Part shown: positions 548 to 10,599 of the stretch, piece by piece
How positions within the stretch are numbered: the first letter of the stretch is position 1
Layout of the letters: each line of letters begins with the position of its first letter
DNA from: Candidatus Methylomirabilis sp.
Lineage (GTDB): Bacteria; Methylomirabilota; Methylomirabilia; Methylomirabilales; Methylomirabilaceae
Direction: 5' to 3'
Assembly: GCF_028716865.1 (NCBI RefSeq)
Contig: NZ_JAQUOY010000019.1
Location: 1-52,203 of the forward strand
DNA: 52,203 bases
The notes under the pieces: model-generated
Told to the model about the DNA's origin: nothing
Seen by the model: the letters and a program-made list of their open reading frames with translations, nothing else
Database searches by the model: none
Position numbers and translations under genes: made by a program

Positions 548-1437
548 CGAAATCGATCCGGGTGCAGCAGTCTGGCCAACAGCTCGAGGCCCTCAACGAT
601 CCTGGGCCCAGGACGACTGATCACGTTCGCATCGATCGCAACGATCGTTCCACGGCGCACCGCCCTCAAGCCGCTCCAACCGGGACGTTGAGCCACCAGT
701 TCCGGCGTTTGAGGATGCAAGGGAGCGAGGGCATCGCTCAGGATGATCAGGTCGGGATCGGCACTGATCAGTTCCTCCAGACTGAACTGAGGCCAAGTCG
801 TTCGCGAGTGCGCGGCGACGTTGACCCCACCCGCGAGGCCAATGAGGACATCGATAAAGGAGCCTGGACCGGCTGTAAAAGGGCGACCCGGGTCGCTGCC
901 ATCAAACTCGATAAAGACCTTGGGCTTGGGAGCGTCTCCCACCTTCGCCACGACCGCCGTTACACGCTGCCGCATGGCGCGAACCAGGCTTTCGGCTCGC
1001 GCCTCGGCGTCCACGATCCGCCCCATCAGGAGAATATTTCGGTAGATGTCGTCGAGCGTCCGTGGCGCGAAGATCATCACCCTGATCCCCTGCCGTTCGA
1101 GCGGCAGAAGCGGCTCGGCGCTTCCGTAGGTCGAAAGAATCAGATCCGGACTGAAGCGCACGATCTGCTCCACACTAAGATTAAAAGGAGCAACTCGAGG
1201 TTTAGCTTTTGCGGCAGGCGGAACGTCGCTCCATTGGTCCACGGTTACGATTCGGTCCTCGGCACCCAGGGCGAATAGGATCTCCGTATTGCCCGGCGTC
1301 AAGGTCATAATCCGCTTGGGCGGCCCATCCAGCGTGACGGACCGCCCGGCATCATCGACAACAGTGAGTGGAGCCGCTTCGGCAGGTCCCCACAACAACA
1401 GCACGATCCCGAACAGCAGGATCAACCGGCGTCTCAT
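544..1437 (-). CDS. Periplasmic cobalamin-type binding protein (BtuF-like)
   Basis: A 297-residue ABC-transporter substrate-binding protein of the PF01497 family. It has an N-terminal signal peptide (RRRLILLFGIVLLLWGPAEAA) with no lipobox cysteine, so it should be a free periplasmic protein. Family features follow: PKRIMTLTPGNTEILFALGAEDRIVTVDQWSDVP near the front, the VEQIVRFSPDLIL segment, and the GGVNVAAHSRTTWPQFSLEELISADPDLIIL half. It lies between a TonB receptor and a FecCD permease and overlaps each by 4 bp (ATGA), which marks one translationally coupled uptake operon. The cobalamin assignment comes from the upstream riboswitches; siderophore binding cannot be excluded from sequence alone. 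Confidence 0.9.
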   Translation of the reverse strand: MRRRLILLFGIVLLLWGPAEAAPLTVVDDAGRSVTLDGPPKRIMTLTPGNTEILFALGAEDRIVTVDQWSDVPPAAKAKPRVAPFNLSVEQIVRFSPDLILSTYGSAEPLLPLERQGIRVMIFAPRTLDDIYRNILLMGRIVDAEARAESLVRAMRQRVTAVVAKVGDAPKPKVFIEFDGSDPGRPFTAGPGSFIDVLIGLAGGVNVAAHSRTTWPQFSLEELISADPDLIILSDALAPLHPQTPELVAQRPGWSGLRAVRRGTIVAIDANVISRPGPRIVEGLELLARLLHPDRFR

Positions 1438-3485
1438 AGTGTACCCTTGAGACCAAACAGGGCCGTAATCCCAGGGGTCGAAAAGCCATACACTTGCTGG
1501 AAGTCGTTATCGAAGAGGTTCTGAATCTTTCCGAACAGTGTAAGTTCCCGCAGATGGCGGGCATCCTTCAACAAGGTATACGAGGCCGCAAGATCCACGG
1601 TCTTATAGCCCTCTGCAGTCACCCGTCGAGTTTCGAAGGTGGCCGGATCGGTAAAGATATCCGGCCGATCACCGACGAACGTTGCCGTCAAGCTCGTATG
1701 CAGACGACGCCACACATGGTCGATGGTGAGCGTCCCGGCGTGTCTGGGGCGACGGAGCAGCGGCTGGCCCTTCAGCAAGGCGACGGACCCGATCCCACCA
1801 TCGTCGAGCACTTTGGTATCCAGAAAGGTGTAGGTGCCACCGATCGTCAAGCCGAATCCTGGGCGTACTGTCGTGGCCAGCTCAACCCCCTCCGCCCGCG
1901 CGTTCTGAACATTACAAAAGCTGGCCGGGCAGCCAGGCGTGGGACTAAAAATAAAGGCGATCAAATCATCAAAATGGTTGTGAAAGTAGGTCGCTGAGAA
2001 ATCGGCCAGCCCATGGAGTACCGGCTGGTCAAGGCCAATCTCCCAACTCCTGGTACGTTCCGGTCTCAAATTGCGATTACCGACGACAAACTGACTCCCG
2101 TCGCCAAAGTTCTCAATGAAGCTCGGCTCCTTGATCCCTTTGCCATAAGCGGCTCTAAGCTTTGTCTCTATAAAAGGGATAAGATACGCCGCCGATACAC
2201 GGGGAGTCACCTCAGTCCCGAATGTGCTGTTTCCATCGACCCGGAATCCCGCCGTTAGGAACAGCCGTTTTTTCCAATCAAACTGACCCTGGAGATAGCC
2301 GGCCTTATTATCCCGGCGGGCGTCGTTCGCGCTTAAAGAGGGAAAATCGGTCTCTGTAGCCGCGGCCCGCTGTTCAAACCACTCCCGCTCGAACGCGAAG
2401 CCGACGGTGAATAGACCGGATAGATCGAGAACGGTCGGAGTCGTAAGATTCCAGAAGTAGTCTGCGGAGACGCGGCGCTCCTCATTGGTACTGTGGAAGG
2501 CGGAGAAATCAAGGGGCTGTCCAGTGCGGGGATCGAACGGATCGAACGGATCGTCGAAGACCGACTGATGGCGGTAGAAGCCGATCTGTACCGTCTGCTG
2601 CCACCAGGAGGTGAGCGAGTGATCGCCTTTCGCGCTGAGAACCAATCGCTGCTGATCGCTGGATTGGTTCGGATCAAGCCTGCGCGTATCCCGTGGAAGG
2701 ACCCGTGGCCGATCACCTTCGAACTCAGTGGGAAAATTGAGGTGGCTGTCGCTGTAACGGACGGCAAGACCCAGATCCAGCGCTTTCTCAAGAGCAAAGC
2801 CCACGCGGCCGCTTACAGTCGTGACGCCGAAGTGGTTGTTGATGGGGAGGCTCCCATCGGTGTCGCTTCGGCCCAGCCCCAGCAAGTAGTCAAGTTGCCC
2901 GGCTCCTCCACTGAGATTCAATTTCTCCTCAAAGGTTTTTAGATTTCCACCCGCAAACGAGGCTTCGACACGCGGGGTCCCCTTTCCTCTCTTCGTAAAT
3001 ATCTGAATCACCGACCCCATGGCATCGGAGCCGTACAACGCGCTGTGGGGCCCCCGGACGATCTCGATCCGCTCGATGTTGTCGGTACTCAGGTCGCCGA
3101 AATCGTAGAAGCCGCCGGCGTCGTTGACCTTCACTCCGTCAATCAGCACCAGATTAAAATTGGAGTTGCCGCCTCTTGGAAACGCAGTCACAATGCTGCC
3201 GCGGCTACTCTGTTGCCTGACGCTCAAGCCCGGGACATCCCGGAGAAGGTCCGATACCTGATCGACCTGACGCGCCTCGATCTCCTTTTTCGTAATGACC
3301 GTCACCGATGCAGCAACCTGTTTTACTGGAACTTCGGTTTTGGTCGCCGTCACTACCACCGGCCCAAGCTCTACTGCTTCTTCAGGAGTGAGTCCGAGCA
3401 TCTGCCCCGACGCGCTTCCCAGTCCACAAGCCCACAGAACTGTCACCCACAACCACCCCTTGATCAGACTACTCCAGCATTTCAT
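1434..3485 (-). CDS. TonB-dependent outer-membrane receptor (BtuB-like)
   Basis: Outer-membrane receptor that takes up a bound substrate, here most likely cobalamin, using TonB energy. I start it at the ATG at 3485 because it gives a signal peptide (MKCWSSLIKGWLWVTVLWACG) and has an AAGGGGG ribosome site just upstream; the frame is open further 5' but that part is riboswitch. About 683 residues. Visible parts: the plug domain with VTVITKKEIEARQVDQVSDLLRDVPGL and the RIEIVRGPHSALYGSDAMGSVI segment, then a long beta-barrel ending in VYGFSTPGITALFGLKGTL. This end lacks the usual terminal aromatic residue. It is the first gene after two cobalamin riboswitches, and binding-protein and permease genes follow with 4-bp overlaps. 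Confidence 0.92.
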   Translation of the reverse strand: MKCWSSLIKGWLWVTVLWACGLGSASGQMLGLTPEEAVELGPVVVTATKTEVPVKQVAASVTVITKKEIEARQVDQVSDLLRDVPGLSVRQQSSRGSIVTAFPRGGNSNFNLVLIDGVKVNDAGGFYDFGDLSTDNIERIEIVRGPHSALYGSDAMGSVIQIFTKRGKGTPRVEASFAGGNLKTFEEKLNLSGGAGQLDYLLGLGRSDTDGSLPINNHFGVTTVSGRVGFALEKALDLGLAVRYSDSHLNFPTEFEGDRPRVLPRDTRRLDPNQSSDQQRLVLSAKGDHSLTSWWQQTVQIGFYRHQSVFDDPFDPFDPRTGQPLDFSAFHSTNEERRVSADYFWNLTTPTVLDLSGLFTVGFAFEREWFEQRAAATETDFPSLSANDARRDNKAGYLQGQFDWKKRLFLTAGFRVDGNSTFGTEVTPRVSAAYLIPFIETKLRAAYGKGIKEPSFIENFGDGSQFVVGNRNLRPERTRSWEIGLDQPVLHGLADFSATYFHNHFDDLIAFIFSPTPGCPASFCNVQNARAEGVELATTVRPGFGLTIGGTYTFLDTKVLDDGGIGSVALLKGQPLLRRPRHAGTLTIDHVWRRLHTSLTATFVGDRPDIFTDPATFETRRVTAEGYKTVDLAASYTLLKDARHLRELTLFGKIQNLFDNDFQQVYGFSTPGITALFGLKGTL

Positions 3486-3530
3486 CGTTCGCCCCCTTAT
3501 CCGCGAAGGTGGTGCGTTCTTGTCCTCCCC

Positions 3531-3715
3531 CTGGACAGGTCTCCTGACTCGTGGATCGTTGCCGACCCTGCGCCTTCCCATCCTTCGGCAAGCTCAGGAC
3601 AGTGGCGTTATGCAGAGCGACTCCCCACTCACAGTGGCGGGACCGTGCTGGCTTTGCCCTGCCGCAGCAAGCGGCCGGCACACCAGCTTCCCTTACATCC
3701 AGGGGCGTTCAATTC
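3531..3715 (-). promoter_or_regulatory. Cobalamin riboswitch 1 (receptor-proximal)
   Basis: Read on the minus strand, this leader shows the cobalamin riboswitch signature: AAGGGAAGCTGGTGTG, then GGTCCCGCCACTGT, a variable arm, GGGAAGGCGCAGG, and finally the B12 box GAGTCAGGAGACCTGTCC, which ends 46 bp before the receptor ATG. The ribosome site lies just past the B12 box, so translational control is likely. Boundaries are approximate. The variable arm contains a segment like the REP-type repeats seen elsewhere in the window. Confidence 0.9.
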
Positions 3716-3813
3716 GTCCGAACAGTTACCTGATCGTATAGGCTTCTCTCACCCCCCTTCAGGCACTCTATCCATCCCTACCAAAGCAAAGATCCGACCC
3801 ACATCTCCTCCGC

Positions 3814-3851
3814 AATTAAAAAACCCCAATCCTCCGAGGAGGATTGGGGTT
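3814..3851 (-). terminator. Intrinsic terminator between the two riboswitches
   Basis: A 14-bp perfect inverted repeat (3822-3835 with 3838-3851) followed on the minus strand by TTTTTTAATT. It lies about 95 bp downstream of riboswitch 2 and upstream of riboswitch 1, so it is the natural expression platform of riboswitch 2. No gene sits between the riboswitches. Confidence 0.88.
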
Positions 3852-3943
3852 CTCATTCCCAAACCGAACGTTAAACCTGCGCCGCGATCAACCCGGTACG
3901 CGACAAGGCCGCCCTTCCCCTCGGAAGGTTATCAGCACCTCGG

Positions 3944-4170
3944 GGCTGGGCAGGTCTCCTGGCTCGCGGCTTATCTTACTCTCTGCGCCTTCCCAGTGAA
4001 AAGACGAGGGATAGGATAAGCGCCCTAACCCTGGTCTTTCACCAGTGGCGTTCAGCAGATTTCAACGCCGCTTACAGTTGCGGGGCAGCAACGGCTTGGC
4101 CCTCTACACTCCGAGTACAAGGCTTCACCGTTTTCCCTGTTTCCGCTATCGGCGGACCCAGCCCCACCCG
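3944..4170 (-). promoter_or_regulatory. Cobalamin riboswitch 2 (promoter-proximal)
   Basis: A second, separate cobalamin aptamer on the minus strand. It contains CAGGGAAAACGGTG, GCTGCCCCGCAACTGTAAGCGG, an extended peripheral hairpin region, CTGGGAAGGCGCAG and the B12 box GAGCCAGGAGACCTGCCC at 3944-3961. It follows a good sigma-70-type promoter and precedes an intrinsic terminator, so it probably acts by transcription attenuation. Edges are approximate. Confidence 0.9.
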
Positions 4171-4190
4171 ACTTTGGCGGGACAAGGTCT

Positions 4191-10179: not shown

Positions 10180-10545
10180 TTAGTAAGTAACCGATCGATC
10201 ATACTCCATGAGCAGTTGGGCGTATCGTTTGATGTCGATCTTCTCGACGCCTGGTACACGCTTGAGGTCTTCGTCCAAGACCCCCCGGGTCTGGGCTCAC
10301 CCCCCTCAGAGATAGACCGGGATCTGGTGATCTACGGCGAACTGAAATAACTCTTCGAGTGGCGGCAGCCCGTACGGTTTTACATGCTGCCGCAACTCCG
10401 GCTTGATCAGGACCGTGGCATCGAGCGCCAACACAATGCCGACATCGATCCCCGATTCCTTCGCCCCCTTCGCCACAAAGAACGGCATCGCCGCCCGCGT
10501 TGAGTTATCGTACCCGTGGGTCGCTGTGATCAATAACTTTGCCAT
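10180..10545 (-). CDS. DsrE-family protein with two in-frame TGA codons: probable UxxU selenoprotein
   Basis: Starting at the ATG at 10545 (ribosome site AGGGAGGGG), the frame reads MAKLLITATHGYDNSTRAAM and continues as a DsrE/DsrF-like small sulfur-relay fold up to HQIPVYL, where it meets TGA (10306-10308). Two Gly codons later comes a second TGA (10297-10299). The same frame then continues as AQTRGVLDEDLKRVPGVEKI and on to YDRSVTY and TAA at 10180. Family members that I recall end with PVYxCGxCAxxRG...DRVVTY, so both TGA codons fall exactly on the conserved CxxC cysteines. Read as selenocysteine, the product is 121 residues with U80-G-G-U83. TGA is a normal stop elsewhere in the window. The alternative is a pseudogene with two nonsense changes, which would be an unlikely coincidence. 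Confidence 0.75.
10264..10295 (-). promoter_or_regulatory. Two overlapping SECIS-like hairpins after the TGA codons
   Basis: Hairpin 1 pairs CCCAGACC (10288-10295) with GGUCUUGG (10275-10282), one mismatch, loop CGGGG; its loop starts 19 nt after the first TGA. Hairpin 2 pairs GGGGUCUU (10277-10284) with AAGACCUC (10264-10271), one G-U, loop GGACG; its loop starts 21 nt after the second TGA. Both loops carry G in the first two positions and sit in the 16-37 nt window described for bacterial SECIS elements. The two share bases and cannot form together. Confidence 0.6.
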
Positions 10546-10599
10546 CGTCCCCTCCCTCTTTCTCCTTAACGCTCTGTTCATACAGAAGCCTAAAATACC

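Follow-up and report, generated by a model that had tools for sequence, protein, structure and literature searches.

A DsrE-family gene of Candidatus Methylomirabilis with two in-frame UGA codons, probably both selenocysteine, and a candidate SECIS hairpin for each

The gene and its predicted protein

Methylomirabilis genomes belong to nitrite-dependent methane oxidisers, and the window, by which we mean the whole stretch of DNA that was analysed, comprises 52,203 nucleotides of one contig of such a genome (GCF_028716865.1, NZ_JAQUOY010000019.1, positions 1 to 52,203). It carries a DsrE-family gene (Table 1) in whose predicted active site two UGA codons stand 9 bases apart. Translated from 10545 to 10180, the frame reads M-AKLLITATHG...IPVYL-U80-GG-U83-AQTRGVLDEDLKRVPGVEKI...YDRSVTY-TAA, which confirms the run of TGA-Gly-Gly-TGA through YDRSVTY to a TAA that an earlier note on this DNA had described without naming a strand; the gene lies on the minus strand. 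The family assignment made there was upheld as well, with a match of Pfam DsrE (PF02635) spanning residues 3-120, across both TGAs (E=2.8e-14; 53.7 bits in the profile search, curated cut-off 22.7). The motif is UGGU (Sec-Gly-Gly-Sec) and not the single-Sec UxxC, and NCBIfam holds no specific model for the UGGU DsrE protein. Judged from the sequence, the gene is a strong candidate for a double-Sec DsrE protein, in which both UGAs very probably stand for selenocysteine. An ordinary gene call, which opens at an upstream start, gives 91 aa and ends with codon 79, much as the note had foreseen with a protein cut near residue 79, and because gene callers truncate there, the protein is likely missing or broken in annotated Methylomirabilis genomes.

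Table 1. Features of the DsrE-family locus, in positions of the window.
Feature	Position	Strand	Basis
Putative DsrE-family selenoprotein gene, ATG to TAA, 121 aa, U80 and U83	10180..10545	-	frame translation, Pfam, AlphaFold2
Ribosome-binding site GGGAGGGG, just 5' of the ATG	10549..10556	-	sequence
In-frame TGA no. 1 (codon 80, UGA1), Sec candidate	10306..10308	-	TGA in 20 UxxU and 62 UxxC members, Cys in 42
In-frame TGA no. 2 (codon 83, UGA2), Sec candidate	10297..10299	-	TGA in 20 of 124 members and in L166; Cys in the remaining 104
Hairpin 1, SECIS candidate for UGA1: AGACCC-GGG-GGGTCT	10278..10292	-	folding, family survey, covariation
Hairpin 2, SECIS candidate for UGA2: GGGGTCTT-GGACG-AAGACCTC	10264..10284	-	folding, survey, synonymous-site freeze in codons 88-94

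The AlphaFold2 model shows a DsrE fold (mean pLDDT 94.8, pTM 0.88) in which U80 closes a strand and U83 lies in the following helix, the usual place of a redox CxxC. Top matches in Foldseek were YchN, a Sulfolobus DsrE-like protein, DsrEFH and TusD, and among solved structures E. coli YchN (PDB 1jx7) was the best match by fold (E=1e-7). Its CKTC..RG aligns with UGGU..RG, although YchN has Cys at both positions, shares only 22% identity and contains no selenium. The protein is best described as a YchN-like DsrE protein of one domain, with Sec-Gly-Gly-Sec predicted in place of the active-site CxxC. The relay Cys of DsrEFH and TusBCD lie in the same region. These sulfur relays have the same fold (2hy5, 2d1p) but are three-subunit complexes, whereas the profile search found a single PF02635 member in the source genome; three DsrE-fold subunits encoded together were not found there, the adjacent ORFs being of other kinds. 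The likeliest function is a cytosolic one in selenol redox chemistry or in a sulfur/selenium relay, in which the protein would cycle through an intramolecular U80-U83 diselenide, although we give it no more than about even odds. Among the loci compared, no gene neighbourhood was conserved outside the genus and no operon supports a particular function: the neighbours, named by eye, differ from place to place. Methylomirabilis has a quinone oxidoreductase and a PQQ-type dehydrogenase there, locus L054 has CcdA-like and cupredoxin genes, and locus L057 has 2-oxoacid dehydrogenase genes.

The closest known selenoprotein is the DsrE-like one (PF02635, UxxC) of Zhang, Fomenko and Gladyshev 2005 (PMC1088965); DsrE 1 and DsrE 2 are given in PMC2398784, and a DsrE-like selenoprotein is also listed in PMC1794560. 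As far as the accessible parts of these sources go, all are UxxC proteins with one Sec (PMC1088965, PMC2398784, PMC9312934 and the 2026 review PMC13188914), which bears out what the earlier note said of one-Sec forms and agrees with its view that a double UxxU would be unusual in the family. No UxxU DsrE protein was found in the portions of the literature searched, where UxxU is given for other families only, and an earlier mention elsewhere is possible. With the known proteins the present one has in common the DsrE domain, Sec at the first CxxC position and a bacterial SECIS candidate just downstream; it differs in having Sec predicted at both positions and a second hairpin. Other bacterial selenoproteins with two Sec in a UxxU motif are a Prx-like family, the putative mercuric reductase/metal-binding family NF041115 and an FmdB-like family, but these are unrelated to DsrE, and a second SECIS for the second UGA is not described for them in the accessible part of the review (PMC13188914). 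A double-Sec (UxxU) form would extend a family for which only single-Sec proteins are listed. Selenoprotein L of aquatic eukaryotes also carries UxxU, which is taken to form a diselenide; it shares the motif with the protein described here and differs in its thioredoxin-type fold and in the location of its SECIS in the 3' UTR.

Selenocysteine machinery and the UxxU, UxxC and CxxC relatives

The source genome (2.54 Mb in 53 contigs, 99.98% complete) contains all four genes whose search the earlier note had proposed, namely selA (604 bits), selB (381 bits, over the cut-off), selC as a tRNA-Sec with anticodon UCA (67 bits) and selD (400 bits). Seven of the eight other tested genomes with Sec forms of the family likewise had selB over the cut-off, the exception being an assembly from Chloroflexota (G195), 1.4 Mb in size and possibly incomplete; in both CxxC-form genomes tested, Nitrospira moscoviensis and a Nitrosospira, selB over the cut-off was absent. 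As a separate observation, the genome's own selD (L047, G000:C3:103676-104599, minus strand) has one in-frame TGA, and for that reason its product, selenophosphate synthetase, probably contains Sec as well. The accessible part of PMC13188914 mentions a Methylomirabilota MAG for which 63 selenoproteins are predicted.

Family comparisons were based on 124 distinct members, 20 UxxU, 62 UxxC and 42 CxxC, the UxxU sequences coming from 19 genomes since two contigs of the REEB33 assembly (G001) carry the copy; a further UxxU member, L166, was found later and stands outside this set. When L166 is counted, 20 genomes have the double TGA, so that both codons are kept in 19 genomes besides the source. 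Ten of these are of the same genus (protein 88-93% identical), including one assembled as a single contig of 2,752,854 bp, and six are further Methylomirabilota/Rokubacteria genomes with 71-85% identity. A second, divergent UxxU group of 34-37% identity, with the motifs UGGU, UTGU and UGTU, comprises two more Methylomirabilota as well as Chloroflexota (L036, L044, L064, L166). UxxC relatives with a single Sec are spread over many phyla, and Nitrospira and Nitrosospira have CxxC relatives. The TGA pair aligns with Cys-Cys in E. coli YchN (CKTC) and Nitrospira (CGAC) and with Sec-Cys (UGxC) in single-Sec relatives; from YchN and the family alignment it follows that both TGA positions are Cys positions of the family, as the first reading of the sequence had claimed.

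Close relatives keep both TGAs together with intact downstream frames, and in the main UxxU clade codons 2-79 have a dN/dS of 0.095 and codons 96-121, which follow both TGAs, one of 0.142. The frame beyond the TGAs is therefore under purifying selection similar to that upstream, in line with the earlier statement that it is otherwise undamaged. The same double-TGA frame recurs in 19 other genomes, far above chance. Taken together, the evidence marks a real gene for a predicted UxxU selenoprotein, neither a pseudogene nor an error.

In the tree the main UxxU clade is separate from the UxxC members, and the best topology places two UxxU groups inside UxxC. Two independent origins of UxxU were considered and dropped, as a single UxxU clade stays admissible (AU p=0.57). 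With CxxC, UxxC and UxxU forms in one family, the gain of a second UGA can be compared with the gain of a second hairpin. Some members deserve separate mention. One Rokubacteria-group contig (G057:C164) carries a UxxU and a single-TGA DsrE gene (880-1242, plus strand, and 3046-3387, minus strand) on opposite strands about 1.8 kb apart. Two Chloroflexota members, L144 and L161, show SGMSSKGRGV at the UxxC/CxxC site, with Ser first and no Cys or Sec, and a relative on a viral contig (L173) has 29% identity; the motif scan gave no output for it.

Two candidate SECIS hairpins

According to the accessible part of PMC13188914, a bacterial SECIS has a loop of 3-9 nt with G at its first two positions, lies 16-37 nt after the UGA and has an MFE at or below -7.5. 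Both hairpins of Table 1 agree with this description, their loops lying 19 nt after UGA1 and 20 nt after UGA2, respectively; hairpin 1 needs its lower pairs for it, since the strict stem gives -7.4 kcal/mol, just short of -7.5, and -11.3 kcal/mol with these pairs included, while hairpin 2 reaches -10.3. Each UGA thus has a candidate bacterial SECIS hairpin of its own, which is new here, the second hairpin being absent from the earlier note.

Hairpin 1, defined by a 3-nt loop at exactly +19, was present in 79 of 82 Sec members (19/20 UxxU, 60/62 UxxC) and in none of the 42 Cys members. Among Sec members its stem showed 23 two-sided changes with 99% of cells paired, a value that none of 1000 shuffles equalled, and the same positions in CxxC members were 57% paired, same as shuffles. 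In one UxxU member, L025, the hairpin is weak (-3.8 kcal/mol).

Hairpin 2, at or below -7.5, was found in 20/20 UxxU members as compared with 2/62 UxxC and 5/42 CxxC; for UxxU against UxxC, Fisher's test gives 4e-17 with kinship ignored, the contrast being one of one or two lineages. Pairing at its positions reaches 99% in the main clade and 59% in UxxC. Being nearly invariant in the main clade, the stem has no covariation of its own there. The second UxxU group has a different hairpin 2, CCGACCA-GGATY-TGGTCGG, with the loop 26-27 nt after UGA2, and L166 keeps six of its seven pairs, with one A-C mismatch. Under a null of synonymous codons, hairpin 2 alone was matched in 254/3000 draws for L016 (moderately strict), and both hairpins jointly in 2/3000 for L016 (strict) and 110/3000 for L025 (looser).

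Synonymous divergence (pS) in the main clade is 0.55 in codons 2-79 and likewise in codons 96-121, but drops to 0.19 over codons 84-95 and, within these, to 0.11 over codons 88-94. The latter, GGG GTC TTG GAY GAA GAC CTC, are invariant in the clade except for the third base of GAY and a Glu-to-Ala change of codon 92 in L020. Leu90 is always TTG, a codon used for 1.6% of leucines in the Rokubacteria ORFs sampled and for 13% in genes of the window. From the drop in pS, the fixed TTG at Leu90 and the fact that the sole free third base (GAY) falls in the loop of hairpin 2, it follows that codons 88-94 are constrained as RNA, beyond the protein alone. That hairpin 2 is a second, UGA2-specific SECIS appears likely, and it is proposed here as a good candidate.

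A hairpin-2-like stem, GGGTCTT-GGATG-AAGACCT, was also noticed in a Neomarinimicrobiota UxxC member (L059, 3001-3360), in which the second position is Cys. As L059 sits in the group adjoining the main double-Sec clade on the tree, the stem may predate the second Sec; alternatively, a second Sec may have been lost in L059.

Decoding of two UGA codons nine bases apart

One cis-acting hairpin at a fixed distance offers no obvious explanation for two Secs nine bases apart, and the gene can be regarded as a natural experiment on how bacteria place them. In the main clade the 5' arm of hairpin 2 (10284-10277) takes in the whole 3' arm of hairpin 1 (10283-10278), hence the two cannot coexist. Each begins about 12-13 nt past its own UGA. 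Once UGA2 occupied the A site, the ribosome would enclose the 5' arm of hairpin 1, then 4-9 nt downstream. When the mRNA was left free to fold from 13 nt past UGA2 onward, the pairing probability of hairpin 2 was 0.93-1.00 in 20/20 members; with UGA1 in the A site the hairpins compete, and most main-clade members already favour hairpin 2.

The shared strand and the mutual exclusion suggest a hand-off from UGA1 to UGA2. The SelA/SelB/SelC/SelD system would decode both UGAs as selenocysteine, hairpin 1 directing insertion at UGA1. When the ribosome had advanced three codons (9 nt) and UGA2 entered the A site, the 5' arm of hairpin 1 would come to lie inside the ribosome and the hairpin would melt, so that the freed strand GGGGTCTT could pair with AAGACCTC to form hairpin 2, which would in turn direct insertion at UGA2. 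Such a translational SECIS relay, in which mutually exclusive, strand-sharing hairpins would see the Secs inserted in turn, each by its own signal, is put forward tentatively, at somewhat less than an even chance.

Rather doubtful, yet to be taken seriously, is a reading in which both UGAs are Sec and hairpin 2 alone serves both, hairpin 1 being a relic inherited from an ancestor with one Sec. Measured from UGA1, the loop of hairpin 2 is at 29 nt, within the accepted range of 16-37 nt, hairpin 2 beats hairpin 1 in most main-clade folds, and the weakness of hairpin 1 in L025 points the same way. However, the position of hairpin 1 is kept in 19/20 UxxU members, loop size and distance included, and the second UxxU group has hairpins that are free of overlap and able to form side by side (L036, L064).

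Decoding may be inefficient when UGAs are closely spaced, which would favour a situation where only UGA1 is efficiently read as Sec and UGA2 mostly terminates, leaving an 82-residue product with the full-length protein as a minor one. This is improbable in view of the strong purifying selection past UGA2 (dN/dS 0.14), the fact that no other stop codon ever takes the place of UGA2 and the existence of a candidate hairpin specific to it. A decaying pseudogene or a sequencing or assembly error as source of both TGAs is ruled out for practical purposes by the same TGAs in 19 other genomes, the single-contig genome among them, by intact frames and by purifying selection. Reassignment of TGA to another amino acid (Trp, Cys) in the lineage can be set aside just as firmly, as relatives have Cys, not Trp, at both positions, selA/B/C/D are present and ORF calling with table 11 yields genes of normal, full length throughout the window.

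Elsewhere in the window, two tandem cobalamin riboswitches (93 and 107 bits) were detected at 3517-4176 on the minus strand, upstream of the minus-strand ORFs 1434-3581 and 544-1437, which by eye resemble genes for a TonB-type receptor and a substrate-binding protein, respectively.
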